A DNA stretch of 64,000 nt from Terrimonas sp. (GTDB lineage Bacteria; Bacteroidota; Bacteroidia; Chitinophagales; Chitinophagaceae), in the NCBI GenBank assembly GCA_016125075.1, contig WGMO01000013.1, positions 62,001 to 126,000 of the forward strand, in the 5' to 3' direction. The translations under genes and the position numbers were made by a program. Below are positions 38,430 through 52,034 of the stretch, one piece after another. Below the pieces are notes generated by a model. That model was not told the DNA's origin, did not search any database, and worked only from the letters and a program-made list of their open reading frames with translations. Positions within the stretch are counted from its first letter, which is position 1. Every line of letters starts with the position of its first letter.

Positions 38430-38458
38430 TATTAATTTTATATTAAGTCTGTGTTATG
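38430..38458 (+). promoter_or_regulatory. 11-bp-period repeat array before the PhoB-like gene
   Basis: Seven-base units TATTAAT (38430), TATTAAG (38441) and TGTTATG (38452) repeat at exactly 11 bases. A perfect TAnnTTTG box (TAGGTTTG, 38495-38502) follows with no good -33 box, as expected for an activator-dependent promoter. It suggests autoregulation of the two-component system. Confidence 0.45.
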
Positions 38459-38494
38459 TGATAAATGAAAAAAGGTCTTCAAAACAATTTACTT

Positions 38495-38502
38495 TAGGTT
38501 TG
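38495..38502 (+). promoter_or_regulatory. -7 promoter box of the response regulator gene
   Basis: TAGGTTTG matches the Bacteroidota TAnnTTTG box exactly. Transcription would begin near 38509, just before the ATG at 38521, which supports that start over the longer frame from 38458. Confidence 0.55.
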
Positions 38503-38520
38503 CGCAAACAAAACCTGAAA

Positions 38521-39201
38521 ATGGCTGACACCAATACAAGAAAAGTGTTAATTGCGGATGATGAGCCGGATATTCTTGAAATTTTGAAATATAACCTGGT
38601 GAACGAAGGTTACCAGGTGTATACAGCAAAAGATGGTGACGAGGCCATTGAAAGGGCAAAATTTGCCCAACCCGACCTGGTAGTGCTCGATATCATGATG
38701 CCAAAAAAGACGGGGGTGGAGGTTTGCAAGATTTTACGGACCCAGGCCGCTTTTAAAGATACTTTGATTCTTTTCCTTACAGCCTTAAGTGATGAAGAGA
38801 CCCAGATAAAGGGACTTGAAACCGGTGCAGATGATTATATCAGTAAACCCATCAGCCCCAAGGTATTCATCAGCCGGGTCAATGCCCTGTTCCGGAGGTT
38901 AAACAAAACAGAAATAAAAACGATCAAGGTCAATGGGCTCACCATCGATCCCGAAAAATTCCTGATCCAGCTGGATGGTAAGGAGATCATACTGGCTAAA
39001 AAAGAATTTGAACTGCTTCACCTGCTGGCCTCCAAACCCGGCCGTGTTTTCCTCAGAAATGAGATCCTGAGCCAGGTTTGGGGTAATGATGTGATCGTTG
39101 GCGACCGTACCATTGATGTCCATATCCGCAAGATCAGGCAAAAGCTGGGTATCGACTGCATCACTACCGTAAAGGGAGTGGGCTATAAATTTGAATTGTA
39201 A
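38521..39201 (+). CDS. PhoB/OmpR-type response regulator
   Basis: 226 residues from the ATG at 38521. Receiver domain: acidic pair Asp13/Asp14, phospho-acceptor Asp57 (VVLDIMMP), Thr87 and Lys109 (SKP). C-terminal OmpR winged-helix domain from about residue 130, with FELLHLLASKPGRVFLRNEIL and the recognition helix RTIDVHIRKIRQKLG. A histidine kinase gene follows after 44 bases. Sequence and context (phosphonate operon, PiT, Pho-box-like arrays) make it a PhoB candidate; sequence alone cannot separate PhoB from other OmpR-type regulators. Confidence 0.9.
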   Translation: MADTNTRKVLIADDEPDILEILKYNLVNEGYQVYTAKDGDEAIERAKFAQPDLVVLDIMMPKKTGVEVCKILRTQAAFKDTLILFLTALSDEETQIKGLETGADDYISKPISPKVFISRVNALFRRLNKTEIKTIKVNGLTIDPEKFLIQLDGKEIILAKKEFELLHLLASKPGRVFLRNEILSQVWGNDVIVGDRTIDVHIRKIRQKLGIDCITTVKGVGYKFEL

Positions 39202-39245
39202 AGTCACGCAAAAATTAATTACCCTACACGCCGTAGCTTTGCCGG

Positions 39246-40295
39246 ATGTTTGACACAAAAAACCTGTCACCCAAACAATTATCTTCCTTCACAGCCCTCG
39301 TGCTTTCCATTCCGGTTGCCCTGGGTATTTACTGGCTGACGAAGGACTGGAAAACCACCGGCATTGCTTTCCTCATCCTGCTGGCCGGCAGTTATGGCCT
39401 GATCCTTTTCACCCTGGAAAAGTTCATCTACAGGAAGATCAAACTCATTTATAAATTCATACACCAGACCAAGGCCAGTAAAAGGGAAGAAACCTATTAC
39501 AAATATATCTTACCCAAAAAGAGCATCGATGAGGTCAGGGAGGATGTTGAAGCCTGGGCGGAACAACAGAAGAAGGAAATCGAGTTGTTAAAAAAGAATG
39601 AACAGTTCAGGAAGGAATTCCTGCAGAACCTGGCGCATGAATTCAAAACCCCTGTATTTGCCATACAGGGTTATGTTGATACCCTGCTGGGAGGGGCTAT
39701 GCAAAACCCTGAGGTGAACAGGGCCTTTTTGGAAAAGACTTCAAGGAATGTGGACAGGATGACCAGCCTGCTCAATGATCTGGACGAGATCTCAAAACTG
39801 GAAAGGGGCGAGATCATGCTCTATAAAGAAAATTTTGTGATCCAGGACTTGTCGAAGGAAGTGTTTGAAAGCCTGTCGCTAAAGGCTGAAAAGAAAAATA
39901 TAAAATACAGCATTAAAAAAGGATGCGAATCCCCGCTGGTCGTATTCGCCGACCGGGAAAAGATCCGGCAGGTGTTATCCAACCTCGTCGAAAACTCCAT
40001 CAAATACGGCAAACAGGGAGGCAATATCACAGCGAGTTTTTATAAAACAGACGGCAAGCGGATCCTGATTGAAGTGAGTGATGATGGAATCGGCATCCAG
40101 GAAAAACATCTTCCCCGCATTTTTGAAAGATTTTACAGGACCGAAAGAGGAAGAAGCATCGATGTGACAGGCACGGGGTTAGGGCTCGCTATCTGCAAAC
40201 ATATCGTGGAAGCACATGGGCAAACGATCCATGTACGAAGTACCGAAAACGTAGGCACCACGATTGGGTTTACCCTCCGGGCCAGGAAAGAGTAG
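39246..40295 (+). CDS. PhoR-like sensor histidine kinase
   Basis: A 349-residue membrane kinase with two N-terminal helices (about 12-31 and 38-57) and almost no periplasmic domain, like PhoR proteins that sense through partner proteins. The phospho-acceptor His131 sits in NLAHEFKTP. ATP-binding boxes are present: NLVENSIKYG (N), DDGIGI (G1), GTGLGLAI (G2). No PAS domain is visible. Its stop lies two bases from the convergent oxidoreductase gene of the phosphonate locus. Confidence 0.88.
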   Translation: MFDTKNLSPKQLSSFTALVLSIPVALGIYWLTKDWKTTGIAFLILLAGSYGLILFTLEKFIYRKIKLIYKFIHQTKASKREETYYKYILPKKSIDEVREDVEAWAEQQKKEIELLKKNEQFRKEFLQNLAHEFKTPVFAIQGYVDTLLGGAMQNPEVNRAFLEKTSRNVDRMTSLLNDLDEISKLERGEIMLYKENFVIQDLSKEVFESLSLKAEKKNIKYSIKKGCESPLVVFADREKIRQVLSNLVENSIKYGKQGGNITASFYKTDGKRILIEVSDDGIGIQEKHLPRIFERFYRTERGRSIDVTGTGLGLAICKHIVEAHGQTIHVRSTENVGTTIGFTLRARKE

Positions 40296-40297
40296 TG

Positions 40298-41416
40298 TTA
40301 ACGGCCCGCAATGATTTGTTCTGCTAACCCAAAACCGAGGGTCATGCCTGCCCCACCCAAACCATTTATGATCATCACGCCCTGTTCGGGTTGTATAACC
40401 ATATCATTTTTTCCATTCATCAACTTGGGATAGATGCCATTCCAGGTTTCGATAACCTGGTCATTTTCCAGGTTCATAAATTGTTGCAGATAATCTAAAA
40501 TCATCTGGTTAATGCATTGCCTGTCAAAAGGGTCATGGGTTAATCCGTATTCATGGGAATCACCAACGGTCAATTCTCCCGATTCATTTTGCGAGACCAT
40601 GACATGTATCCCCCATTGAACATATAACGGCATTTCCGCTTCGATTTTTTTGCGGAGCAGAGATTGTGAAACAGCCGCTTTAAAACTTTGATAATGCAAC
40701 AGGGAAAGGCCCCCGCATAATGCCGGCCCTATCCTGGATTGACCGGGAGGAGCAGCCAGCCGCATCATTTGTAACTTGCACTTTGAAATATCCGTAGCAA
40801 TAAATAATTCGGGATACAACGTTTCAAAGTCGGCCCCACTACAAACATAAATCTCATCCGCTTCCCAGGTATCTTTACCTGCATATACGGCAGGGTAGGC
40901 AATATCCGTTATCGCTTTATTCCAGATGAACTGGACCCCGTATTTTTCATTCAGCCATCGCGGTAATGCAGCAATGGCTTTTCGGGGATCGACGATCATC
41001 TCATCAGGACTGTACAGACCGCCCCGGAGTCCCTCCTGCACGATAAAAGATGATTTAGCCCGAACGGCATCCGGTTGCAGCAATGCATAATTCCGGTGCG
41101 CATAAATTTCTGATAATTCTTCCAGCACCTGCCATTCTTCATTTGTATAGGCCACATGCATTGACCCAACCGGATCATACCAGATATTTGCATCCTTACA
41201 AACCTGCTCCCAAATTCCCCGGGATAAGATCGCTCTTTCAAACATTTCACCATCCGGCTGACCCACGGGCCAAATCATACCGAAATTCCGGACCGAAGCG
41301 CCGATGGCTTTTCCGGTTCTTTCAAAAACGGTAACATCATAACCTCTTACAGCAAGTGCCCTTGCTGTTGCCAGACCGGCGATTCCGGTTCCAATAACTA
41401 TTGCACTTTCAGGCAT
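40298..41416 (-). CDS. FAD-dependent oxidoreductase, TIGR03364-like, phosphonate-linked
   Basis: A 372-residue amino-acid-oxidase-like flavoprotein (DAO fold). The Rossmann motif is GTGIAG (residues 9-14) with Glu32 for the adenosine ribose; ASVRNFGMIWPVGQ follows, typical of TIGR03364. That family is known to lie beside phosphonatase-like HAD enzymes and phosphonate transporters and is proposed to oxidise an aminophosphonate to its aldehyde. Here the HAD partner and transporter are the next genes, and the start overlaps the transporter stop by eight bases. Substrate (aminoethylphosphonate, its N-methyl or 1-hydroxy form) is inference. Confidence 0.85.
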   Translation of the reverse strand: MPESAIVIGTGIAGLATARALAVRGYDVTVFERTGKAIGASVRNFGMIWPVGQPDGEMFERAILSRGIWEQVCKDANIWYDPVGSMHVAYTNEEWQVLEELSEIYAHRNYALLQPDAVRAKSSFIVQEGLRGGLYSPDEMIVDPRKAIAALPRWLNEKYGVQFIWNKAITDIAYPAVYAGKDTWEADEIYVCSGADFETLYPELFIATDISKCKLQMMRLAAPPGQSRIGPALCGGLSLLHYQSFKAAVSQSLLRKKIEAEMPLYVQWGIHVMVSQNESGELTVGDSHEYGLTHDPFDRQCINQMILDYLQQFMNLENDQVIETWNGIYPKLMNGKNDMVIQPEQGVMIINGLGGAGMTLGFGLAEQIIAGR

Positions 41417-42704
41417 ATTTCATATTTAGAGGGTCAGAAAACTGAAGTTGGTATCTCTTTTTAAAATACAAAACGGAAAAGAAGGTCAGCAGGATACCCA
41501 TTACGGACAGGATCATGATCATTTGTATAAAAAAGTTGGTCCAGGACATAGACATACCTGAAAAATTTTTCACCAGCAATATGATATCACTGCCGAGGTA
41601 TCCAAAGGAATCAGCCACATAAATAATAAACCCGGCCGTGCTTACATATTTAAATGATGCAATCAGTCTTTCAAAAAGCATGCAATTAAATGGAACATAC
41701 CCCAAATAAAGGCCCGTGCCTGTCAAGGTCATCCACCAGAATGGGCTTACCCAATGAGCAGAAAAAAGGATGGTACTCACCATAGCAATAAAAAAACCGA
41801 TGATGACCAGGGTGTGATTGATAAACAGCGCCCTGATGTTATTCCGGATCATGATCATCAAAGACATGATCAGTAATACGGTAACCGAAGGAATCAGTTC
41901 GCTCCGGGTAAAGACGGCTGTATCATTTCCCAATCCCAGCTCGTTCCAGATATCGGCTGCAAAATTGCTCCGGTAATCCCTGATGACCGTTAACAGGACG
42001 TAGGTGATGATCAACAAAACAAGACCGGGATAGAAAGCACGGATGAATTGTCTTCTTTCTTTCCGGTTCATCATTTTCCTTTCCGTTCTTAATTCCATAT
42101 CCTGTTGACTGGGTGCAGGAGTCTGTTCCAGTAACCAGGCAAATAACAGCAGCGGGGGAAAAAACAGCAACCCTGTAATGAACGGCATCCACCAGGTACC
42201 TGTATGCCATTCCAGCAAAATATATTTCCCGGCACTTTGTGTAAACCCGGATGCAAAAATAAAACTGGCAGAAAGGACAGCGCCCAAAAACTCGGTCGTT
42301 TTCCTCCCTTCCAGGTAACTGAATACGAGACCATAGATAACGCCAAGGGGAAACCCGTTCAGGAGCAGGAAAATAATATTGTAAGGAGCGGGCACAAGGG
42401 CAAAAAAGAAGAGTGCCGACCAGGCAATCCCGATATTGATGATGATAAAAGGAAAACGGTTCTTCTTTTTCACTTCCGCGATGAAACGGATTCCGAAAAA
42501 TTTACTGCCCGTATAACCAATCGTCTGTGCAATGACGAGCCATATCTTGTAATCAATATGTAAAAACTGAAGGGATCCGTAGTTTGCTGCGGTAAAGGGT
42601 TTACGGAAGGCATACATGCAGGTATATACGCAAAATGCCGCTACTGCCGAGATTAGTGTATATACACCGGGAGAAGCCTTTTGGAGACCGGGCCTGAACT
42701 TCAA
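41409..42704 (-). CDS. DUF5690/MFS-type transporter of the phosphonate locus
   Basis: 431 residues and about twelve membrane segments in the layout of a major facilitator protein; it resembles the Bacteroidota family DUF5690. The start appears to be a TTG at 42704 (MKFRPGLQKASPGVYTLISA), as no ATG lies close by. It sits between the HAD hydrolase (5 bases) and the oxidoreductase (overlap of 8 bases). I infer inner-membrane uptake of the organophosphorus compound whose C-P bond is broken by the neighbours. Confidence 0.8.
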   Translation of the reverse strand: MKFRPGLQKASPGVYTLISAVAAFCVYTCMYAFRKPFTAANYGSLQFLHIDYKIWLVIAQTIGYTGSKFFGIRFIAEVKKKNRFPFIIINIGIAWSALFFFALVPAPYNIIFLLLNGFPLGVIYGLVFSYLEGRKTTEFLGAVLSASFIFASGFTQSAGKYILLEWHTGTWWMPFITGLLFFPPLLLFAWLLEQTPAPSQQDMELRTERKMMNRKERRQFIRAFYPGLVLLIITYVLLTVIRDYRSNFAADIWNELGLGNDTAVFTRSELIPSVTVLLIMSLMIMIRNNIRALFINHTLVIIGFFIAMVSTILFSAHWVSPFWWMTLTGTGLYLGYVPFNCMLFERLIASFKYVSTAGFIIYVADSFGYLGSDIILLVKNFSGMSMSWTNFFIQMIMILSVMGILLTFFSVLYFKKRYQLQFSDPLNMKYA

Positions 42705-42709
42705 TAGGT

Positions 42710-43390
42710 TTATTTTAAAATGGTGATAAGTTCTGAAAGGCTGTCTATAAGATGGGTTGGTCCAAGATCCAGTAATTCTTCTTTTGTTCCCGAACCGGTA
42801 GTGACCGCAATTACATAATAACAGCCTGCCTTTTGACCTTCTTCAATATCAACCGTTGTGTCTCCGACCTTTGCAACCAGCATGGGGTCATCGATACCCG
42901 CCCTGTACATCAGTTGTTCTATCATCAGCGAAGCAGGCCGGCCATTTTCAACTTCATCGCTGGCGATATAATCATCCACGAGGTTCCTGTCCATCCACTG
43001 AAACCGCTTGACGATCGTGTCGGCGATCACTTTCGGAAAACCGGTATTCAGGGAAATGCGCATACCCTTTTCCTTTAGTAATTCAAAAACGGCTTCTGTA
43101 TCGTTAAATGGTTTTACAGAAGGATCATATTCATAAAAATCTATCATTGCATTGACGAAATCTTCATGTATATTTTCTACCTGGTCGTCATTGAATTTTG
43201 CCCCCAATTCTTCCAGCATCATCCTCACGGCCACAATCTTCTTGACCCCCATATATGGATGGGTGTCTTGGATTGAAATAGGATATCCATTCTTTACAAA
43301 AGCATTTTTAAAGGCATTGGCTACAAAACCATCATCGGTTAAGGTGGTACCGGCGATATCAAACACAACAAGTTTTACAGGCATAATCAT
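42710..43390 (-). CDS. Phosphonatase-like HAD hydrolase (PhnX-like)
   Basis: A 226-residue HAD enzyme of the TIGR03351/PhnX type. Motif I is FDIAGTT with the nucleophile Asp11. The cap has Lys51 in YMGVKKIVAVR, which aligns with the Schiff-base lysine of phosphonoacetaldehyde hydrolase (MGLLKI there). Motif III has Arg in NGRPASLM instead of Lys, and motif IV is KVGDTTVDIEEG. Retention of these residues predicts cleavage of a 2-oxoethylphosphonate, giving phosphate and an aldehyde. ATGs at 43390 and 43384 are both possible starts. Confidence 0.88.
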   Translation of the reverse strand: MIMPVKLVVFDIAGTTLTDDGFVANAFKNAFVKNGYPISIQDTHPYMGVKKIVAVRMMLEELGAKFNDDQVENIHEDFVNAMIDFYEYDPSVKPFNDTEAVFELLKEKGMRISLNTGFPKVIADTIVKRFQWMDRNLVDDYIASDEVENGRPASLMIEQLMYRAGIDDPMLVAKVGDTTVDIEEGQKAGCYYVIAVTTGSGTKEELLDLGPTHLIDSLSELITILK

Positions 43391-43467
43391 TTTTTTGAAA
43401 GGTAATGGTAATGTGTGCGGGCCTTATTTTTCCGGGATGAAGAAAACTTTAAATCTGGATGAAGTGT

Positions 43468-44046
43468 TTATGAACGGTTTAGTAAATGCCGGTAGGCCAT
43501 TTCCCGGTACCGATCCAGTGATGGCAAGGGCAGGTGCTCCATCTTAGCCAGGTCATCCCATTCCCGGAGTTTTATAAAGAGATTATGCCATTCTTCCTTT
43601 TCAAATGCCTGGGCTTCCCTTTCATTCATCACCCCGCCTTGTTTTTCGAGTGTAATCTTACTGGCAGATGATAATTTATCATAATAGTCAGGAAATTTAT
43701 AAGTGAGATACCTTTTTGCAGCCACATGGCTTTGGACAAGGGAAGTCAGCCGTTCAGAAAAACCTTTATCCCGCAAATACCCGGCCCCCAGGCGCTCATG
43801 ATCCATGACGCCCAGTCCATCCATCAAACGGACAGGAAGGATGTGTTCGCATAAATGGCCGATGTCGTGAAAAAAAGCAGCAAGGACCACTTCATCATCA
43901 TATCCTTCCTTTTCCGCCAGTGCGGCTGCCTGGCACATATGCTCGATCTGTGATACAGGTTCCCCGATATAATCGGAAGAACCGTATTTTTCGTAGAGTC
44001 CGAAAACTTCTTCAATGATACTGGCTGCTTTTTCACTTTCCATCAT
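43468..44046 (-). CDS. phnZ: PhnZ-like HD-domain phosphonate oxygenase
   Basis: 191-192 residues from the tandem ATGs at 44046/44043; the longer frame to 44277 is a shadow over the next gene. Counting from 44043, the HD-domain mixed-valent di-iron ligands match PhnZ: His35, His59, Asp60, His82, His106 and Asp163, plus Tyr25 and Glu28 (YIGE) and Lys110, each one or two positions from PhnZ Y24, E27, H34, H58, D59, H80, H104, K108, D161. PhnZ uses oxygen to split 1-hydroxy-2-aminoethylphosphonate into glycine and phosphate. A TmpB-like substrate (trimethylated) is an alternative. No PhnY-type dioxygenase lies in the window. Confidence 0.9.
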   Translation of the reverse strand: MMESEKAASIIEEVFGLYEKYGSSDYIGEPVSQIEHMCQAAALAEKEGYDDEVVLAAFFHDIGHLCEHILPVRLMDGLGVMDHERLGAGYLRDKGFSERLTSLVQSHVAAKRYLTYKFPDYYDKLSSASKITLEKQGGVMNEREAQAFEKEEWHNLFIKLREWDDLAKMEHLPLPSLDRYREMAYRHLLNRS

Positions 44047-44053
44047 ACCATAT

Positions 44054-45148
44054 TTAATGTAAGGGAATTGATTTGGCCACTGCATGGTCAGTTTGGAATT
44101 CCTCGCCCAGCAATTCTGCAATCGTTTGTGCGATCTGTTTCTGAAAGAGCTGCTGTTCCTGCTTAATTTCTCCGGCCGGTTGGATATGAGGACCAACAAT
44201 AGCCATCCAGGTTTCAGAAGAACCTCCCACCAACATACCATGTTTGGACCACTTGCTTTCTCTTCTGCCCCTTCCATGGTCTGTAGTGATGATCATGGTT
44301 GTATTATCCTTGTAACCGGGCGTAGTTTGAATCCAGTGCCAGAGTTCAGCGATCATCCCGTCTACTGCATGGGCCTGTTCCAGGTAAAGGTCATAGCGCG
44401 ACTGGTGTGCAAATTCATCGGTTTCACCTAAACCCAGGAACATTACTTTTGGCTGGTGCTGCTCCAGGTATTCCCGGGCAGCGAGAAATGTTAGCCGGTC
44501 ATGCCTTGTTGACAGGGATGGCTTTTGCAGTGAAGCCTGTACTTCATTGATGAGGCTGGCACCAGCCGTTTCCGCTTCCATGGATTCATAACCGCTGTTC
44601 ACAGGAAAACCATTCTCTTTTTCATTCAAAATATATGGAAATACATCCCAGGAGGTGAAAGCCACGACCTTGCCTTTGTATTTTTCTGTTTCGTTCAAAT
44701 AGGTCAGCACATTGGTATTGTTGTTGAAAATTTTATCATTGGATGCCACTGAAAGCCCTGTTTTACCGGTAAATATTTCATGGTACCCGGGATAAGAAAT
44801 CGAATAGATATTGGCAACATTCACTTTGTTGTCGTAAAACCTGTTCCCGAAAACCTGTCCTTTCCCTGCAACCACCTTCCAAAAAAAAGGCATGAGCATT
44901 TTTCTTCTTTTCTCCGGTTGCTCATCCCAATAGAGCATCTTCATCGTTTCCGCATCGGGTGTTACAGACGCATCATTGATCAAAAGGGAATCGGCACCTA
45001 AAAATAGTTCCTGCCAGCGGAAACCATCAGTTGTAATGATAAAAAGGTTTTCTGCAGGCTGAATAGTTTTAGCGGGTTGTATTTGTTTTTCCCGGATGGG
45101 TGTATAGACCGTCATCAGCAGGATAACGCAGATCGTATAATTTTTCAT
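44054..45148 (-). CDS. Exported alkaline-phosphatase-superfamily hydrolase 1
   Basis: About 364 residues from the ATG at 45148, with an N-terminal export segment (MKNYTICVILLMTVYTPI). Superfamily metal-site residues are recognisable: Asp41 (TTDGFRW), Ser118 in ISYPGYHEIFTG as probable nucleophile, Asp244/His248 (ETDEFAH), Asp290-His291 (TTDHGRG) and His303 (SKHGM). It is a paralogue of the next gene upstream. Members act as phosphodiesterases, phosphomutases or phosphonoacetate hydrolases. Within this locus I infer release of a phosphonate or phosphate from a larger ester in the periplasm. Confidence 0.8.
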   Translation of the reverse strand: MKNYTICVILLMTVYTPIREKQIQPAKTIQPAENLFIITTDGFRWQELFLGADSLLINDASVTPDAETMKMLYWDEQPEKRRKMLMPFFWKVVAGKGQVFGNRFYDNKVNVANIYSISYPGYHEIFTGKTGLSVASNDKIFNNNTNVLTYLNETEKYKGKVVAFTSWDVFPYILNEKENGFPVNSGYESMEAETAGASLINEVQASLQKPSLSTRHDRLTFLAAREYLEQHQPKVMFLGLGETDEFAHQSRYDLYLEQAHAVDGMIAELWHWIQTTPGYKDNTTMIITTDHGRGRRESKWSKHGMLVGGSSETWMAIVGPHIQPAGEIKQEQQLFQKQIAQTIAELLGEEFQTDHAVAKSIPLH

Positions 45149-45227
45149 CAGTGCGGAAAATAGGTTATACAAAGCAAGCTGATCTATATGAACAGCATGT
45201 TAACCTAACATTATCCCAGGGTTATGT

Positions 45228-46298
45228 TTAATACAATACCGATTTAACCGGGGGCATCACCGGGTGATCCGTTTTAAAATCCATTCCGAAAAAAGAAGCA
45301 ATTGTTGCAGCAATTTGTGCCTGGTACAGATGTTCGCCCGATTTAATTTCTCCGGATGGGGGGGTATCAGGTCCCATTACGGCCATCCATATCTCATGAG
45401 AATCTTCAATCCGGGTACCATGATGCTGCCAGTTCTCCTTATCCTTATCACCCCTGCCATGATCACAGGTAACAATCAAAGTTGTTTTATCCTTGTAAAG
45501 CGGCATAGACTGTATCGTCTTCCAGAGATCGGCGATCATATTATCTTCGGCGAACGCACTTTTCAGGTACTGATCATACATCCCGCCATGAGCAAAATCA
45601 TCAGTCTCGTCGAAAGCGATATACAAGACCCTGGGTTGATACGCTTTCAGGTATTCCCTGGCGGCGAAATAGGTGAGTACATCGGGCCGCACATCAATGG
45701 GCCTGGTGGTGAGGAACTGCATGTCATTGATCAATGACAGAGTTGCAGAAGGAAACCGGAGGGTATCAACATCAGCATTCACATAAATACCACTCCTGGG
45801 CGCGTTCAGGATATAGGGAAAAACATCCCAGGTGGTAAAGGCTGCCACTTTCCCTTTGAAAGCTTTTTGCCGGTTGATATATTCCAGGACATTGATGTTC
45901 TTGTTATAGATCTTATCATTTGAATTGATCGCCGTATCGGGATATCCGGTAAATATTTCATTATATCCGGGATAAGAAAACCAATAAGGATTGGCATTAT
46001 CCATTTTGTTTCCCAGGAACCGGTTGCCGTATAACTGCCCCTTCCCGGATACGGTTCCCCATAAAAAGGGAAATAACTTCTGCCGCCGTTCTGCCGGTGT
46101 TGCTGCCCAGAACTTATTCTTCATCCCTTCGATATCCCTGTTATAAACGGAATCATTTAACAGAAATTCGTCAACGCCCTTAAAGACTTCCTGCCAGCGC
46201 ATGCCATCCAGTGTGACAATGACCAGGTTCTCCGTTTTTCGCTGAGCCTGAGCCAGCATTGTGAAAAATATCAGTAACAACGGTAATATCCTTTTCAT
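45228..46298 (-). CDS. Exported alkaline-phosphatase-superfamily hydrolase 2
   Basis: 356 residues with a clean signal peptide (MKRILPLLLIFFTMLAQAQ). The same superfamily residues are visible: Asp31 (TLDGMRW), the Ser of FSYPGYNEIFTG, ETDDFAH, TCDHGRG and HHGT. It is clearly paralogous to the next gene yet diverged, so the pair may have split substrate preference. It lies 93 bases after susD, separated by a hairpin. Confidence 0.8.
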   Translation of the reverse strand: MKRILPLLLIFFTMLAQAQRKTENLVIVTLDGMRWQEVFKGVDEFLLNDSVYNRDIEGMKNKFWAATPAERRQKLFPFLWGTVSGKGQLYGNRFLGNKMDNANPYWFSYPGYNEIFTGYPDTAINSNDKIYNKNINVLEYINRQKAFKGKVAAFTTWDVFPYILNAPRSGIYVNADVDTLRFPSATLSLINDMQFLTTRPIDVRPDVLTYFAAREYLKAYQPRVLYIAFDETDDFAHGGMYDQYLKSAFAEDNMIADLWKTIQSMPLYKDKTTLIVTCDHGRGDKDKENWQHHGTRIEDSHEIWMAVMGPDTPPSGEIKSGEHLYQAQIAATIASFFGMDFKTDHPVMPPVKSVLY

Positions 46299-46318
46299 AA
46301 TATTATTTTGAATGTAGT

Positions 46319-46350
46319 AAAAAAAGGGGGTAAGATGGATATCTCACCCC
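46319..46350 (-). terminator. Intra-operon hairpin between susD and hydrolase genes
   Basis: GGGGTAAGAT (46327-46336) and ATCTCACCCC (46341-46350) form a stem with one mismatch, and the minus-strand RNA then has seven U. It would terminate part of the transcripts after susCD, giving more receptor than enzymes, as in many Sus-like operons. Confidence 0.7.
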
Positions 46351-46392
46351 GTTCATGAGAAAACTTGCTGCTTATGCTGTAAAAGAAAATCC

Positions 46393-47976
46393 TTATTTTA
46401 AGATCCACATCAATGCATTAATATCATCCTGGCCGCCGTATTGCGATTGAAGGGCTGCCTGATAATTACTGGTATTGGCCGTGGTTTCCGAACCGAAATA
46501 CTGAAACCTTTTTGCAATCCTTGTACCGTTGCCGGTTCCGGGTCCGGTGGTAAATGCCGGTACCCCCGTACGGCGGTTCTGGTAATACCCTTCCAGGCCG
46601 GAATGCCTGAAAAGGGAAATATACTTTTGGATCAATATCTGGTTGAGCCCATTCGCATTATTCCCTGCATATTGAACACCCACCTGGCTGTAAAAGGTAT
46701 TGAAATCAACTGCGACACTAAATTTGTTATAGGCGGCATTGGTTCCCGGTGTTCCGGACTGAAGAAAATTGACCTCTAAATTGCCGGATTCTGGGATCCC
46801 ATAAAATCCCATAGAAGCCCTGATACCTGCTTTATAATGCGACTCGGCATCACCGAGCGGTCCGGAACTGATCCATCCGCGGTTAATGGCTTCTGCGATA
46901 TTGAATAACATTTCCGGGTAACCGATCTGGATACTGGGTTCTCCGGTATAGGTTTGGTAATAGCGGTAACGGTTGATGAGGGAGTACTGACCGCTATTGG
47001 CTTTCACATACATGGTACCGAGGTCTTCTCCGGGAGATGCCCCCACGAAAGCACTAAAACTGGTCGGACTCATACCACCGGAAACAAGTGCCGTGGCGGG
47101 CTCGGCGGTCACAAAAACCCTTGGGTCATTATTTTGGGTGAGCAAACTGATATAGGTGGCAGAAGTGTTGTAGCGCAAAGCGTCAAACCCAAAATTTCCG
47201 GGGTTCATCGGGTAATCATTGGTAGGATGAACAAATCGGTAAGTAAGATTATCATCCATGCTTTCCATAACCGGGTAATTCGTGTGATCTGATACGATCG
47301 TGGAAAACTGTTGTTTGATATTCAGGTCTGCATCCGATTCTTTCTTACTGAGCTCTATGAGTAACCTTAACCGAAGGGTATTCACAGCCTTTCGCCATTT
47401 TGTGAGGTCATTATCATAATAGATATCGCCGGCCAGTGTGAAATTGTTAGCCGCAATCAGCTGCGCCAGCTCCGAGTTGGCACTATCCAGCCAGGCAAAA
47501 GAACGGCGGAAAACCTCTTTCTGTGGGTCATAGGCCGGAAGCAGGTTTTCGGCACCCTTGAGGGCTTCTGTCATGGGGATATCGCCCATCTGCATACTCA
47601 TTTTCGTAAACAGGTAAGCTTTGAAGAATTTGGCCAGTGCCCCGTAAGGGTTGATAACACCCGCCCCATTCCTGATCGCTTCCTCTTCCATTTTGGTAAC
47701 ATTCTTCAAGGTGGAATAATAATTGGTGCCGGAACCGAAATCATAGCGGTTATTACCATAATAATCATAATTACAGCAGAAATATTGTCCCCACCTTTCA
47801 TACATGGAATAGGGCTGGTCAGTCATATCATTGAGCACCCCGTTAAACAGAAGGGAAGCCGGAACACTCGAGGGCTTGTTCTCATTAACATTGAGCTCCT
47901 GGAATGACTTTTTGCATCCTGTGATGATACTGGCCGAAAGGGCTGTCAGGAAAAAGATATAATAAATACGTTTCAT
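46393..47976 (-). CDS. SusD/RagB-like outer-membrane lipoprotein
   Basis: A 527-residue surface lipoprotein: signal MKRIYYIFFLTALSASIITGC with Cys21 as the lipidation site. The body has the SusD-like helical (TPR) pattern with KSFQELNVNENKPSSVP at the start and the end motif DINALMWILK, of the SusD_like_2 type. It caps the SusC barrel and captures substrate. In this locus the substrate is more likely a phosphonate- or phosphate-containing compound than a polysaccharide, since no glycoside hydrolase is present. Confidence 0.9.
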   Translation of the reverse strand: MKRIYYIFFLTALSASIITGCKKSFQELNVNENKPSSVPASLLFNGVLNDMTDQPYSMYERWGQYFCCNYDYYGNNRYDFGSGTNYYSTLKNVTKMEEEAIRNGAGVINPYGALAKFFKAYLFTKMSMQMGDIPMTEALKGAENLLPAYDPQKEVFRRSFAWLDSANSELAQLIAANNFTLAGDIYYDNDLTKWRKAVNTLRLRLLIELSKKESDADLNIKQQFSTIVSDHTNYPVMESMDDNLTYRFVHPTNDYPMNPGNFGFDALRYNTSATYISLLTQNNDPRVFVTAEPATALVSGGMSPTSFSAFVGASPGEDLGTMYVKANSGQYSLINRYRYYQTYTGEPSIQIGYPEMLFNIAEAINRGWISSGPLGDAESHYKAGIRASMGFYGIPESGNLEVNFLQSGTPGTNAAYNKFSVAVDFNTFYSQVGVQYAGNNANGLNQILIQKYISLFRHSGLEGYYQNRRTGVPAFTTGPGTGNGTRIAKRFQYFGSETTANTSNYQAALQSQYGGQDDINALMWILK

Positions 47977-47997
47977 TGTACTGCTTTTAAAAATGAT

Positions 47998-50900
47998 TTA
48001 AAAAACTACATTGATATTAAAGCCAAACCTGCGTGTTGTCGGTGACTGTAATCCTGTACCACTTGTTGAATAATTATACTGGTCAAGATCCACATCTTTA
48101 AACCGCTTATCCTTATAGAAATAGATGAGGTTACGCCCAACCAATGAAAGGCTGATCTTATTGATGAAAGACCTGCCCAGCCATTTTTCCGGTAAATCAT
48201 ATGATAATGTGACCTCTCTCAGTTTGGCAAATGTCTTATCCATCAGGTTGGCTTCGTTAATGCCATAGAACTTACTGATATAATCCTGTACCTGGGTTAC
48301 CTTGGTATTGGGGGAAAACTGCAGGTCTTTATAATTCAGGATAGCCCCGGTGGTACCATCATAGTTGATAGACACGCCATTGGATACCACCACACCCTGT
48401 CCTACATAAATACCCTGGTAGTTAGGGTCACCTGCATGGTCATTATCAGACTTCCGGGCAATACCGAATAACCCTTCAACTGTTTCAATATTTCTTCCTC
48501 CCCGCATGGTTTTATTGTGCATATAATCGGTGGTCACACCCCCCACACTTCCATCAAACTGGAAACCGAATGTGAATCCCTTCCAGCTAAACCTGTTGTA
48601 AAAACTCCATTGAAAATCTGCATTCAGGTATCCCAGGAACTGCGCCTTAGGATTGGCAAGTGGTTTACCGGCAGCATCATGAATGATCTGCCCATCTTCA
48701 GTTTTCACAAAAGCAGAAGAATAGAATTTATCAACCCGGTCACCTTTTTTAAAGAAAGTATTATAAACAGTCTGCCCGGGAGGCAGTTCATCATATTTAT
48801 CCTGGAAAGTAGATACGTTCACCAACACATCCCAGTTCAATCCATTCCTGGTTTTGACAGGGGTGCCTGAGATGGAGAACTCATATCCTGTCTTTCTTGT
48901 CTTCAGCGCATTCAGGAAATAATAGTTATACCCTGTTGCTGAGGATATGGGATTTTGCAGGATACGGGGGCCATCGATATACTGGAATGCTGTGGCACTT
49001 AACCCTATCCTGTTCTGTAAAAACTTGATATCAAACCCTTCTTCATAATTCACCCGGTTAAATGTCTTGATGTTCGGGTCATAAAGATTGCTGCTATAGT
49101 AAGCCGCTGACTGGCCATTATATGGCTTGGAAGTTGAATAGGCTGCAGCCAGAGAATAATCAGGACCGCCGTAGGGTGATAGATAGTTGTTACCATAATC
49201 CAGCGGATAATCATACAGGGAATTACCGGAGGGCGTATTTCCAAATGCCGATATGGTTGAGAAAGGCGCCAATCCTACTGTGGCAGAAGTCGCATCGCCA
49301 TGCACCGTTGCATAGGATCCTCTCAGTTTCAGGAAAGAAATGATTTCCGGAAGTTGAACATAATCTGAAATCACGGATGAAAGAGAGATACTTGGATAAA
49401 AATAGCTGCTGTTGTTCTGCGGGAGTGCTGACGATTTATCCACCCTTCCTGTAATCGAAATAGTCGCATACTTGCTTAAAGAGGCATCCAGTGCATAATA
49501 GGCACTGAAGACCCGCATATCGGAGGCAAAACTGTTGGCCTGTACCGGGTTCAGAGAATTGCTGAAACTATATACATTGGGAACATTCATGTAATCGGTG
49601 GAAGTAAAAGTTGAATTATACATGAATGACCTGATATTTCCGCCCACCAGGCCGGAAAGGTTCAGGAATTTTTTAACCTGGTAGTTATAGTTCAACAGCA
49701 CTTCCGTATTATTTTCAAAAAGGTTCCGGGAATCTTCGCGGTAGTCGCCTAAATTTCCTTCGCGGCTGTAAGGGTGTGCTGAAAAAGGCATTTTTTCCGT
49801 ACGCAGCAGATTATAAGTAGTCATCTGTGTGCGGAAGGTTGTATTCAAATGTTCATTGATCTTGTAATTACCGGAGATGTACCCATAGATATCATTCTTA
49901 TAATGTCCCCGTAACCATTCATTCACCATGAACCAGGGGTTATGATATCGCTGGTATTCGGCAAATACATTTTGAATACCCACTTTGCCGGGCTGCCACT
50001 CCCCTTTGATCAGGGGTGATTGTACATCCCAGTCGGCACCGGTCCAGACAGCTATATTATAAATAAGACTATTCGGCCCATAATCCACATCCGGAAAATT
50101 AGGTGTGTACTGACGGTTATAGTTGAGGTTTGCTTCAATCTTCAGTCTCTTGGAAGGCTGATAAGCACCATACATGTTGAAATCGGTGATATTCAGATCC
50201 ATATTCGGGATGATGCTTTGCTGATAAGAATGCGAAAGAGAGAATCGCATATTGTAATTATCACCTGCCGCGCTCAATGATATATTATTGGTCGACTGAA
50301 AACCCGCTCTCAAAAACCTGTTAAGGTTATCCTTTCCACGGGCCACCCAGGGGGTAGGCTTGATATTGCCGGTGTACACATAGCCACCCGGAAAAGTAGT
50401 GGTATAGGTGGTATTGGGATCGTATTCGCCATCCCATTGCGGGATCATCTGCCCTTCAAACCGCGGGCCCCAAACGTCATAGTCTGCATCATTGAGTCCA
50501 CCACCCAGTCCATTGCCAAACGCATACAAAGCATTTTCACCGGGCCCGTATTCATCCTGTACGCGGGGAAAGGCAAGAAATCCTTTATCAATCGAATTGG
50601 TAGAATTGAATTCAACTGTAAAACCCTTACGGTTTTTATTTCCCTTTTTAGTGGTGATCAGGATGGCACCATATTGTGCCCTGCTTCCATATAATGATGC
50701 AGCGGTTGGACCTTTTAAGATGGTATAGGATTCAATATCATCAGGACTGATATTCCAGGTATCGGAGCTGATCGGAATCCCGTCCACTACATACAGGGTA
50801 ATTTCGTTACCCCTTAACAAAACGGTCGGCTTTCTTAATAATTCAGCTGAAGGTCCGACAGAAAGACCTGCCACTTTACCCGTCAATCCGGAGATGGGAT

Positions 50901-51315
50901 TCTGGTCCCTGGCTTTGACAAGGTCCTCACCTTTCACTTCCTGTACGGCATAACCAATACGTTTCACTTCCTTTTTAATACCAAAAGCCGTCACCACCAC
51001 TTCCGATAAGTTTTTCCCATCGGGCGAAAGCGTGATCGTGGAAGCTGATCCGGCTTTTGTTTCCAGGGGAGAATATCCGATATAACTGATCTGGAGTACA
51101 TCCTCCGCCCCTGCCTTGATACTGAACGAACCGTTGGCATCGGTAACGGTCCGCTGCCGGGTCCCCTTTAGTGAAATAGTGGCTCCTGGTAAGGGTTGGC
51201 CGTTCTCGTTTAATACTTTTCCATTGATAATACCCTGTGCCCATAATGTGCAGCTCATATAGAAAACTGCGGCCAGGGTAAGCATGCATTTACGCATGAA
51301 AGATGTTGTTCCCAT
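47998..51315 (-). CDS. SusC/RagA-type TonB-linked outer-membrane transporter
   Basis: About 1105 residues from the ATG at 51315 (MGTTSFMRKC); an ATG at 51297 is equally possible, while the TTG at 51357 lies inside the predicted promoter. Signal peptide, then a carboxypeptidase-like domain (INGKVLNENGQPLPGATISL), the plug with the SusC pattern VVTAFGIKKEVKRIGYAVQE and GAILITTKKG, and a 22-strand-type barrel. Paired with SusD 21 bases downstream. Energised import of the ligand across the outer membrane for the phosphonate enzymes encoded next. Confidence 0.92.
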   Translation of the reverse strand: MGTTSFMRKCMLTLAAVFYMSCTLWAQGIINGKVLNENGQPLPGATISLKGTRQRTVTDANGSFSIKAGAEDVLQISYIGYSPLETKAGSASTITLSPDGKNLSEVVVTAFGIKKEVKRIGYAVQEVKGEDLVKARDQNPISGLTGKVAGLSVGPSAELLRKPTVLLRGNEITLYVVDGIPISSDTWNISPDDIESYTILKGPTAASLYGSRAQYGAILITTKKGNKNRKGFTVEFNSTNSIDKGFLAFPRVQDEYGPGENALYAFGNGLGGGLNDADYDVWGPRFEGQMIPQWDGEYDPNTTYTTTFPGGYVYTGNIKPTPWVARGKDNLNRFLRAGFQSTNNISLSAAGDNYNMRFSLSHSYQQSIIPNMDLNITDFNMYGAYQPSKRLKIEANLNYNRQYTPNFPDVDYGPNSLIYNIAVWTGADWDVQSPLIKGEWQPGKVGIQNVFAEYQRYHNPWFMVNEWLRGHYKNDIYGYISGNYKINEHLNTTFRTQMTTYNLLRTEKMPFSAHPYSREGNLGDYREDSRNLFENNTEVLLNYNYQVKKFLNLSGLVGGNIRSFMYNSTFTSTDYMNVPNVYSFSNSLNPVQANSFASDMRVFSAYYALDASLSKYATISITGRVDKSSALPQNNSSYFYPSISLSSVISDYVQLPEIISFLKLRGSYATVHGDATSATVGLAPFSTISAFGNTPSGNSLYDYPLDYGNNYLSPYGGPDYSLAAAYSTSKPYNGQSAAYYSSNLYDPNIKTFNRVNYEEGFDIKFLQNRIGLSATAFQYIDGPRILQNPISSATGYNYYFLNALKTRKTGYEFSISGTPVKTRNGLNWDVLVNVSTFQDKYDELPPGQTVYNTFFKKGDRVDKFYSSAFVKTEDGQIIHDAAGKPLANPKAQFLGYLNADFQWSFYNRFSWKGFTFGFQFDGSVGGVTTDYMHNKTMRGGRNIETVEGLFGIARKSDNDHAGDPNYQGIYVGQGVVVSNGVSINYDGTTGAILNYKDLQFSPNTKVTQVQDYISKFYGINEANLMDKTFAKLREVTLSYDLPEKWLGRSFINKISLSLVGRNLIYFYKDKRFKDVDLDQYNYSTSGTGLQSPTTRRFGFNINVVF

Positions 51316-51354
51316 AATTCCCGGTTTTGATGAAGTAATTTTTCTAACCCGGGG

Positions 51355-51384
51355 CAAATCTATTTTTGCAATGTGAAGAGAAAA
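51355..51384 (-). promoter_or_regulatory. Promoter of the susCD-phosphonate operon
   Basis: On the minus strand TAGATTTG (51362-51355) matches TAnnTTTG exactly, and TTTT lies 18 bases upstream in place of the -33 TTTG. Transcription would start near 51348, leaving a 33- to 51-base leader. Confidence 0.6.
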
Positions 51385-51393
51385 TGAGCGGAG

Positions 51394-51450
51394 TGTTAAG
51401 CTAATCTTATGATTTAATAAATATTAAACTTCTATTAAGTATTTGTAAAC
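51394..51450 (-). promoter_or_regulatory. 11-bp-period repeats upstream of susC
   Basis: Plus-strand units TGTTAAG (51394) and TCTTATG (51405), then TATTAAA (51422), TATTAAG (51433) and TGTAAAC (51444), are spaced by 11 bases within each group. They lie just upstream of the predicted promoter and look like the arrays before the PiT operon and the PhoB-like gene. The region is AT-rich, so chance is a real alternative. Confidence 0.35.
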
Positions 51451-51461
51451 TTCATGCGTGA

Positions 51462-52034
51462 TCAGGAAAAGAAATAAAAAACCAGTAGTTTGGCTTCAGT
51501 CTTCCCGCTGTTTTTCAACCGATGCCTTACTCTCCCGTCAAAGAAGATAACATCTCCAGGCTCCAGGTTGTAAGTATTATTCTCTATCTGGTAGGCCACC
51601 GTGCCGGATAAAACATATTTACATTCAAAAGCTTCGGTCTTAATATATTTTTTTCTGGCAGCGCCGGGTTTTATTTCAATCAGCACAATATCAATGGTCT
51701 GCGACAGGATGTTTTTTGTGAGCAGGCGTTTATATTTCAAACCCTTTTCCGGTTCTTTCTGAAAAACGGTTCCCTGGTTGTTCCGGATGATGATCACATG
51801 TTCATTGGAAAAATAATCTTCCATCTCCTCAAAAAAATCTTTCACGCCCACATCCAGTGAATGGATCAGCGCCAGCAAAACCGGCAAGGATGGCACGACC
51901 CGGTTGTTTTCGATTTGTGAGATCAGGCTTTTCGAAACAGCCGCTTTCCCCGCCAGCTGGTCGAGGGTGAAATTCTTCCGGGCCCGGAGGCTTTTAATCC
52001 TTTCTCCGATCAGTAATATTAATTCTTCACTCAT
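51462..52034 (-). CDS. XRE-family regulator with cupin domain
   Basis: 190 residues: an XRE helix-turn-helix domain (about residues 8-64, with TLDQLAGKAAVSKSLISQIE) and a C-terminal cupin_2 domain (about 112-190, with LEPGDVIFFDGRVRHRLKN). Such regulators sense a small molecule through the cupin. It stands upstream of susC on the same strand and probably controls the phosphonate operon in response to the imported compound; the 146 bases between them carry the susC promoter. Confidence 0.88.
   Translation of the reverse strand: MSEELILLIGERIKSLRARKNFTLDQLAGKAAVSKSLISQIENNRVVPSLPVLLALIHSLDVGVKDFFEEMEDYFSNEHVIIIRNNQGTVFQKEPEKGLKYKRLLTKNILSQTIDIVLIEIKPGAARKKYIKTEAFECKYVLSGTVAYQIENNTYNLEPGDVIFFDGRVRHRLKNSGKTEAKLLVFYFFS

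Follow-up and report, generated by a model that had tools for sequence, protein, structure and literature searches.

A candidate SusCD-linked operon for aminophosphonate scavenging in Terrimonas sp. and related gene clusters in other genomes

We analyzed a 64,000-nucleotide stretch of Terrimonas sp. DNA (the window), focusing on nine genes that all lie on the minus strand between positions 40298 and 52034 (Table 1). In order, they encode an XRE-cupin regulator, SusC, SusD, two exported phosphoesterases of the alkaline phosphatase (AP) superfamily (APa and APb), a PhnZ-like oxygenase, a PhnX-like phosphonatase, a predicted DUF5690 transporter and an FAD oxidoreductase. The rechecked coordinates and the profile searches agreed with an earlier note on this DNA, which had claimed nine minus-strand genes in that order; eight genes lie where it placed them, whereas the PhnZ-like gene starts at the ATG at 44046 and not in a longer overlapping open reading frame (ORF). 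The ORF gaps are 21 bases between SusC and SusD, 94 between SusD and APa, 55 between APa and APb, 7 between APb and the PhnZ-like gene, 77 between the PhnZ- and PhnX-like genes, and 5 between the PhnX-like gene and DUF5690, while DUF5690 and the FAD gene overlap by 8 bases. Because no gap exceeds 94 bases, the genes from SusC to FAD likely form a single operon, perhaps interrupted by a hairpin 3′ of SusD; the true SusC start is probably the ATG around 51315 or 51297. Annotation usually assigns SusCD pairs to glycan import. The locus has the SusC/SusD pair of a polysaccharide utilization locus (PUL) but no carbohydrate-active enzymes, and in the profile search none of the nine gene products matched a glycoside hydrolase, as the earlier note had claimed. 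The locus may work in a PUL-like manner, but it is not classed as a PUL.

Table 1. Features of the SusCD-linked locus and its flank in the window
Feature	Position	Strand	Evidence
XRE-cupin regulator	51462..52034	-	HTH_19 and Cupin_2; PuuR-like match below cut-off
SusC/RagA TonB-dependent outer-membrane transporter	47998..51357	-	TIGR04056 446 bits, cut-off 368
SusD-like surface lipoprotein	46393..47976	-	PF12771 207 bits; N-terminal lipobox-like IITGC, judged by eye
Terminator-like hairpin and T-run, SusD/APa gap	46327..46350	-	Terminator scan
APa, exported AP-superfamily phosphoesterase, Ser nucleophile S108	45228..46298	-	PF01663 ~30 bits, cut-off 23
APb, second AP-superfamily phosphoesterase, 48% identity with APa, same catalytic motifs	44054..45172	-	PF01663 ~30 bits, cut-off 23
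PhnZ-like HD-domain oxygenase	43468..44046	-	TIGR03276 209.0 bits, cut-off 214.6
PhnX-like HAD phosphonatase	42710..43390	-	TIGR03351 183.3 bits, cut-off 218.9
DUF5690 inner-membrane MFS (major facilitator superfamily) transporter (predicted)	41409..42704	-	PF18943 545 bits
FAD oxidoreductase, TIGR03364/HpnW family	40298..41416	-	TIGR03364 415.3 bits, cut-off 285.1
PhoB-like response regulator and PhoR/PnpS-like kinase	38458..40295	+	Both below curated cut-offs

The enzymes at the 3′ end of the cluster pointed to carbon-phosphorus (C-P) chemistry. The FAD protein is a full TIGR03364 member, above the curated cut-off. PbfD1 of A. baumannii is also annotated as TIGR03364; together with PbfD2 of Mariniblastus fucicola it oxidizes N-methyl-2-aminoethylphosphonate (N-methyl-AEP) and 2-aminoethylphosphonate (AEP) to phosphonoacetaldehyde, and PbfD2 can replace the transaminase PhnW (Zangelmi et al. 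2023, PMC10590968). According to the family description given in that paper, members are syntenic with phosphonatase-like enzymes, and the substrate is guessed to be 1-hydroxy-AEP. By analogy, we propose that the FAD enzyme would oxidize (N-methyl)AEP to phosphonoacetaldehyde. Profile search of the window's own genome found no PhnW above the cut-off (best match 46 bits, cut-off 361). The PhnX-like protein retains D11 in 88/88 relatives and K51 in 87/88, which we take to be the nucleophile Asp and the Schiff-base Lys, and the protein aligns with phosphonatase structures, K51 falling on the phosphonatase Lys. Its probable reaction, again by analogy, is the cleavage of phosphonoacetaldehyde to acetaldehyde and phosphate.

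In a PDB search, the PhnZ-like protein matched the PhnZ structure 4mlm (E 1.9e-44) and TmpB (E 3.7e-30). Nine positions (Y36, E39, H70, D71, H74, H93, H117, K121 and D174; the IEHM His not counted) are invariant in all 71 relatives and conserved with PhnZ; presumably they are the di-iron ligands and the substrate Tyr, Glu and Lys. By analogy with PhnZ, the enzyme probably converts (R)-1-hydroxy-2-aminoethylphosphonate to glycine and phosphate. None of the nine genes encodes a PhnY* partner, and the one PhyH-family protein of the genome, sought as PhnY*, lies on another contig and received no NCBIfam name at E 1e-10. Because the nine genes lack PhnY*, the PhnZ-like substrate would need to arrive 1-hydroxylated or be made elsewhere.

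We assessed the recurrence of this gene set in an even draw of 395 Bacteroidota-phylum genomes and in 195 genomes from the family to which the window belongs. DUF5690 was present in 43 of the 395 (42 above the cut-off) and in 89 of the 195. A set of 161 loci (80 of up to 20 kb around DUF5690, 80 named loci and the window) was reduced to 155 by dropping identical DUF5690 copies. The named loci were the best 80 of 592 confirmed, not a random sample; the 35 family loci (L100-L134) were mostly higher-scoring and on longer contigs, likewise not random; and the even draw contributed 45 of its 46 over-cut-off places outside the window's own genome (L055-L099; G336 left out). Loci truncated by contig ends counted as misses, and only cluster representatives were scored on curated profiles, the remaining genes being assigned by HMMs built here.

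Of the 155 distinct DUF5690 loci, 118 had at least one C-P gene no more than 6.5 kb away (FAD 103, PhnX-type 87, PhnZ-type 71, PhnW 13, PbfA 8, PhnA 3). SusC and SusD were both present in 84 loci, 77 of which also had a C-P gene. A phosphoesterase of one of three types was present in 87, and 67 combined SusCD with both a C-P gene and such a phosphoesterase. In the even phylum sample alone, 34/45 DUF5690 loci had a C-P gene. C-P loci occur in, among others, Mucilaginibacter, Pedobacter, Chitinophaga oryziterrae, Fulvivirga, Roseivirga and Lysobacter enzymogenes. TIGR03364 exceeded its cut-off in 32 of the 395 genomes: 29 of the 43 with DUF5690 vs 3 of the 352 lacking it (Fisher's test, p 4e-30, without correction for kinship); sub-cut-off matches turned up in every one of the 395 genomes and 14 controls and were not used. 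Compared by eye, 24 of the 32 TIGR03364 places, the window's own genome included, lay within 11 kb of DUF5690. Co-location in relatives, which the earlier note had set as the test of its reading, was therefore borne out by the 118 loci with a C-P gene and the 77 that also carry SusCD. Chance adjacency was ruled out by the same gene set in many genera.

The enzymes occupying these loci narrowed the likely substrate. Slot representatives in other loci exceeded curated cut-offs (in brackets) for textbook AEP enzymes: the transaminase PhnW at 493 bits (401), the (R)-1-hydroxy-AEP ammonia-lyase PbfA at 634 and 629 (525), phosphonoacetaldehyde dehydrogenase (PhnY) at 655 (636), the phosphonoacetate hydrolase PhnA at 500 (408) and true phosphonatase PhnX at 350 (220). 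PbfA and PhnZ, which both act on 1-hydroxy-AEP, never shared a locus among the 118 C-P loci (8 with PbfA, 71 with PhnZ; p 4e-4, kinship not corrected), a mutual exclusion also reported for other bacteria (PMC8154272). The FAD gene was present in 6/13 PhnW loci vs 97/105 other C-P loci (p 1e-4, kinship not corrected), so PhnW and the FAD enzyme tend toward mutual exclusion. Taken together, the slot enzymes and the two exclusions indicate AEP and its methylated or hydroxylated forms. The earlier note's claim that the enzymes point to phosphonate chemistry is thereby upheld and narrowed to AEP-type aminophosphonates (PMC10590968, PMC8154272).

A comparison within the genus separated the capture genes from the pathway genes. 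In a second genome of the same genus (G292), a locus without PhnZ lies between the same flanking gene clusters; its FAD, DUF5690 and PhnX-like proteins are 69%, 67% and 72% identical to those of the window, vs only 33% for SusC and 30% for SusD. The window SusC is 76% and its SusD 63-64% identical to those of L105 and L108, two loci in which the FAD enzyme shows 55% identity. At the same chromosomal site, the capture module was swapped and the pathway retained, and such an exchange fits different carriers feeding one pathway.

We then considered the phosphoesterases that stand between SusD and the C-P genes. Judged by eye, the N-terminus of APa is signal-like and that of APb less clear. The AP-superfamily residues, including a Ser nucleophile, are retained in both proteins, with the fold and the seven two-metal and nucleophile residues found; in APa these are D31, S108, D233, H237, D279, H280 and H293, present in 54/54 relatives. 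The APa model (pLDDT 91.7) was nearest to PafA among solved folds (VIA-align Z 29.7, root-mean-square deviation (rmsd) 2.8, 294 residues), followed by NPP (Z 26); the matches listed also included ENPP6/7 and phosphonate monoester hydrolases (Z 24.6-25.6). Foldseek placed YejM, sulfatases and LtaP at the top. The PDB sequence search with APa gave no match at E 0.001, and the AP profile matched only at E 0.01-0.09. The VIA-align matches included a PafA mutant at K162/R164, the Lys/Arg pair that favours monoesters. Among 32 loci holding the AP cluster, the window was alone in having two copies in tandem (44054-46298).

Elsewhere, unrelated hydrolases filled the ester-cleaving slot: an NPP-like, PF04185-propeller or PhoD-like (L099) protein, or one with weak resemblance to metallo-beta-lactamases (E 0.0013, short of the Pfam cut-off). 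The propeller proteins (L110, 9923-12349, and cluster c12), in which a beta-propeller and a PF04185 phosphoesterase domain are fused, lie in or beside C-P loci. In 17 loci (11 Mucilaginibacter, 1 Pedobacter, and 5 from metagenome-assembled genomes or other sources), a phospholipase C homologue in the same orientation stood directly 3′ of the FAD gene. One of them (L157, 12723-15317) scored 833 bits on NCBIfam (cut-off 580); the others were assigned by similarity to the L190 protein, and two (L165 and L187) are incomplete or split. These loci are the best hint at phosphonolipids, and the window has no such gene. A lipid, glycan or ester would be the best explanation for the imported molecule. 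The earlier note's reading of a phosphonate-utilization locus stood. That the imported cargo would be a polymer, lipid or ester and not free aminophosphonate is suggested indirectly, by the exported phosphodiesterase-type enzymes and by the other hydrolase types that take their place or accompany them elsewhere.

For the transporter, the DUF5690 model (pLDDT 90.9) showed an MFS fold and matched 380 PDB chains at E <=0.001 in Foldseek. The top solved match was SLC37A4/G6PT, the human glucose-6-phosphate transporter and a phosphate-linked antiporter (Foldseek E 7.5e-8; VIA-align Z 32.9, rmsd 3.0, 359 residues); other MFS proteins followed closely (sialin and NorA, E 8.9e-8; NorA Z 31.6). In hhalign, similarity to GlpT (E 0.067, probability 0.8%) and UhpT (E 0.012, probability 3.6%), of the organophosphate:Pi antiporter (OPA) family, was borderline, with the controls EmrD at E 0.41 and LacY at E 0.58. 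R34 and K68 are in register with the GlpT YxxRKxF (TM1) and SKF motifs, UhpT aligning at the first only. R34, K68 and R242 (the last placed by eye) were invariant in 155/155 DUF5690-related sequences, lone loci included; they may correspond to the GlpT phosphate-binding residues R45, K80 and R269. The DUF5690 profile had no match in the PDB sequence search up to E 1, nor did the window protein in NCBIfam up to E 1; 42 DUF5690 proteins run on NCBIfam hit no transporter family, giving scattered weak matches only (best E 0.007). DUF5690 is named nowhere in the open-access literature searched. From the fold, the conserved basic residues and the gene context, we propose that DUF5690 is an aminophosphonate importer.

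Lone DUF5690 loci broadened this proposal. Their clades include Dyella/Rhodanobacter, and Chitinophaga loci with XRE, SusC, SusD and DUF5690 only (L140-L144), which perhaps serve another phosphorus substrate or have dispersed enzymes. A phospholipase C homologue lay within 8 kb in three of seven Dyella/Rhodanobacter loci (L190, L193, L214) and not in the other four (L194, L199, L206, L210); no single partner rule was found for lone DUF5690. Lone loci mostly form separate clades, and some have Pit- and PhoU-like genes in the vicinity, so the substrates of DUF5690 probably comprise several phosphorus compounds.

The regulatory features were examined in the same loci. An XRE-cupin gene was present in 80/155 distinct DUF5690 loci and in 73/118 with a C-P gene, and the regulator is probably substrate-responsive. 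The hairpin scan of the window gave 14 terminator-like sites vs 12.0 expected, an absence of overall excess that leaves the SusD-APa site weak on its own. In related loci, a hairpin with T-run lay within 150 bases 3′ of SusD in 44/85 cases vs 20/302 for DUF5690, PhnX and AP genes (base composition not controlled), and these post-SusD hairpins differ in sequence. Because hairpins concentrate 3′ of SusD, SusCD may be expressed more strongly than the enzymes, and the window hairpin perhaps acts as a partial terminator lowering downstream expression. The sigma-70 consensus is unsuitable for Bacteroidota; the promoter scan with it gave 45 matches vs 26.5 expected, and no promoter was concluded. The PhoB- and PhoR/PnpS-like pair is convergent with the operon. 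Several relatives have the pair next to this site too, and in some of them Pit and PhoU genes lie a short way off, separated by a few genes.

Taken together, these results make it fairly probable that the locus is a substrate-inducible operon that scavenges AEP-type aminophosphonates from larger molecules. SusCD would capture an aminophosphonate ester, such as a phosphonolipid head-group fragment or phosphonoglycan, and import it across the outer membrane. The exported APa and APb, whose fold and catalytic residues were identified, would split the ester and free the aminophosphonate, which DUF5690 may then move across the inner membrane. In the cytoplasm, the PbfD-type enzyme would oxidize N-methyl-AEP or AEP to phosphonoacetaldehyde in place of PhnW, by analogy with characterized homologues, and the PhnX-like hydrolase, assigned to its family by sequence, would cleave the C-P bond. 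In parallel, the PhnZ-like oxygenase could take (R)-1-hydroxy-AEP to glycine and phosphate, and the XRE-cupin protein would switch the operon according to substrate. The catabolic half of this reading is well supported, and we infer the ester, lipid or glycan substrate.

Several observations weigh against it. Among the 155 distinct DUF5690 loci, 37 have no nearby C-P gene, mostly in clades of their own (14 state changes on the tree), so the link between DUF5690 and phosphonates is not universal. SusCD accompanied just 15/45 DUF5690 loci in the even phylum sample, and 24/118 C-P loci had neither SusC nor the two other receptor types sought. Eight of the 32 TIGR03364 places do not adjoin DUF5690 (in five genomes it lies elsewhere, in three there is none). 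The PhnZ-like protein falls 5.6 bits short of the TIGR03276 cut-off and is PhnZ-like only, and the PhnX-like protein is under both of its cut-offs (TIGR03351, and TIGR01422 at 108.1 vs 220). The closest fold of the AP-type enzymes, PafA, is an alkaline phosphatase, so these enzymes may instead release phosphate from ordinary phosphate esters.

A further point against, that 34/118 C-P loci had none of the three phosphoesterase types sought, bears on an explanation we consider unlikely, namely that SusCD imports AEP, methyl-AEP or hydroxy-AEP as small free molecules while the AP-type enzymes serve another organic-phosphorus source. Free aminophosphonates are the substrates of the cytoplasmic part, and SusD-type proteins can serve monomers, as in the sialic-acid pair NanOU (PMC3969230). 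However, many loci have a phosphoesterase gene placed after SusD and before the C-P genes, with the enzyme family varying while the slot stays constant, and the 17 loci described above include phospholipase C in the row.

The use of AEP as a nitrogen (and carbon) source, with phosphate as a by-product, is also improbable. The XRE-cupin regulator suggests substrate induction, and inorganic phosphate (Pi)-insensitive use of AEP as a nitrogen source occurs in P. putida (PMC8316502), whereas two exported phosphoesterases and PhoB-like neighbours fit phosphorus supply, although the neighbouring pair is below the PhoB/PhoR cut-offs. There is no mechanistic contradiction between the two supplies; phosphorus is the most likely yield of the operon, perhaps with nitrogen too.

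It is quite unlikely that the locus is a general organic-phosphorus system in which SusCD and AP handle phosphate diesters of lipids and nucleic acids, with phosphonates as a second substrate class. Flavobacterium has such a Pi-inducible SusCD (PusCD) with periplasmic phosphodiesterases and phosphomonoesterases (PMC8115612); in the window, PafA and NPP are the closest folds to the AP model, and the PhoB/PhoR-like pair, below cut-offs, flanks the locus. Against this, C-P genes accompany 77 of the 84 SusCD-bearing DUF5690 loci (chosen by DUF5690, and thus not representative of SusCD generally), and the regulator at the operon head is of the XRE-cupin type. A glycan locus lying beside unrelated phosphonate genes by chance, which would give SusCD its usual cargo, is extremely improbable: it is contradicted by SusCD with C-P genes in 77 distinct loci and by nine genes without a glycoside hydrolase, and a glycan PUL was ruled out on these grounds.

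Comparison with known systems places the candidate aminophosphonate operon among them. Like the PbfD-PhnX pathway (PMC10590968), it has a TIGR03364-type FAD oxidase adjoining a phosphonatase without PhnW, but it adds SusCD, exported phosphodiesterases and DUF5690, none of which appeared in the excerpts of PMC10590968, and its phosphonatase is of the TIGR03351-like form; the main text of that paper contains neither "Bacteroid" nor "outer membrane". The nearest precedent is Flavobacterium PusCD (Lidbury et al. 2020, PMC8115612), in which SusCD likewise accompanies exported phosphoesterases instead of carbohydrate-active enzymes. PusCD is induced by Pi depletion, whereas an XRE-cupin gene heads the window operon, and the window has C-P enzymes, of which none appeared for PusCD in the excerpts of PMC8115612. 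AepP, a GlpT-like MFS AEP permease with GlpT-type phosphate-binding residues, is similarly an inner-membrane carrier encoded beside AEP catabolism genes (Murphy et al. 2021, PMC8316502); unlike AepP, DUF5690 is a separate Pfam family with borderline profile similarity to GlpT/UhpT. The HD-domain oxygenase shares the nine checked positions with PhnZ of the oxidative PhnY*Z pathway, but the nine genes lack PhnY* and the score is under the TIGR03276 cut-off. In Achromobacter, HpnW and PhnHD stand beside PhnX, their functions called open in the excerpts of PMC11203657. A search of titles and abstract openings in the open-access literature, with subscription papers and preprints outside its scope, found no report linking SusCD to phosphonate catabolism among the papers listed, and "Bacteroid" and "TonB" are absent from the main text of the review PMC10574752.

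More tentatively, these loci may represent a Bacteroidota class of modular phosphonate utilization loci. In this class, exchangeable SusCD pairs would capture aminophosphonate-bearing lipids or glycans, a changeable extracytoplasmic hydrolase (AP/NPP, phospholipase C, PhoD or metallo-beta-lactamase type) would free the head group, and DUF5690 would be a new OPA-like MFS branch importing aminophosphonates and, in lone-gene clades, other phosphorylated head groups. The combination joins a known AEP pathway and a known SusCD strategy with a newly proposed transporter family. The cytoplasmic aminophosphonate route is already known, and we know of no route by which Gram-negative bacteria acquire lipid- or glycan-bound phosphonates. 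If true, the recurrent locus would give SusCD a role in phosphonate use and DUF5690 a function, some SusCD pairs may have been miscounted as glycan systems, and Bacteroidota would be tied, in a testable way, to phosphonolipid and phosphonoglycan turnover.

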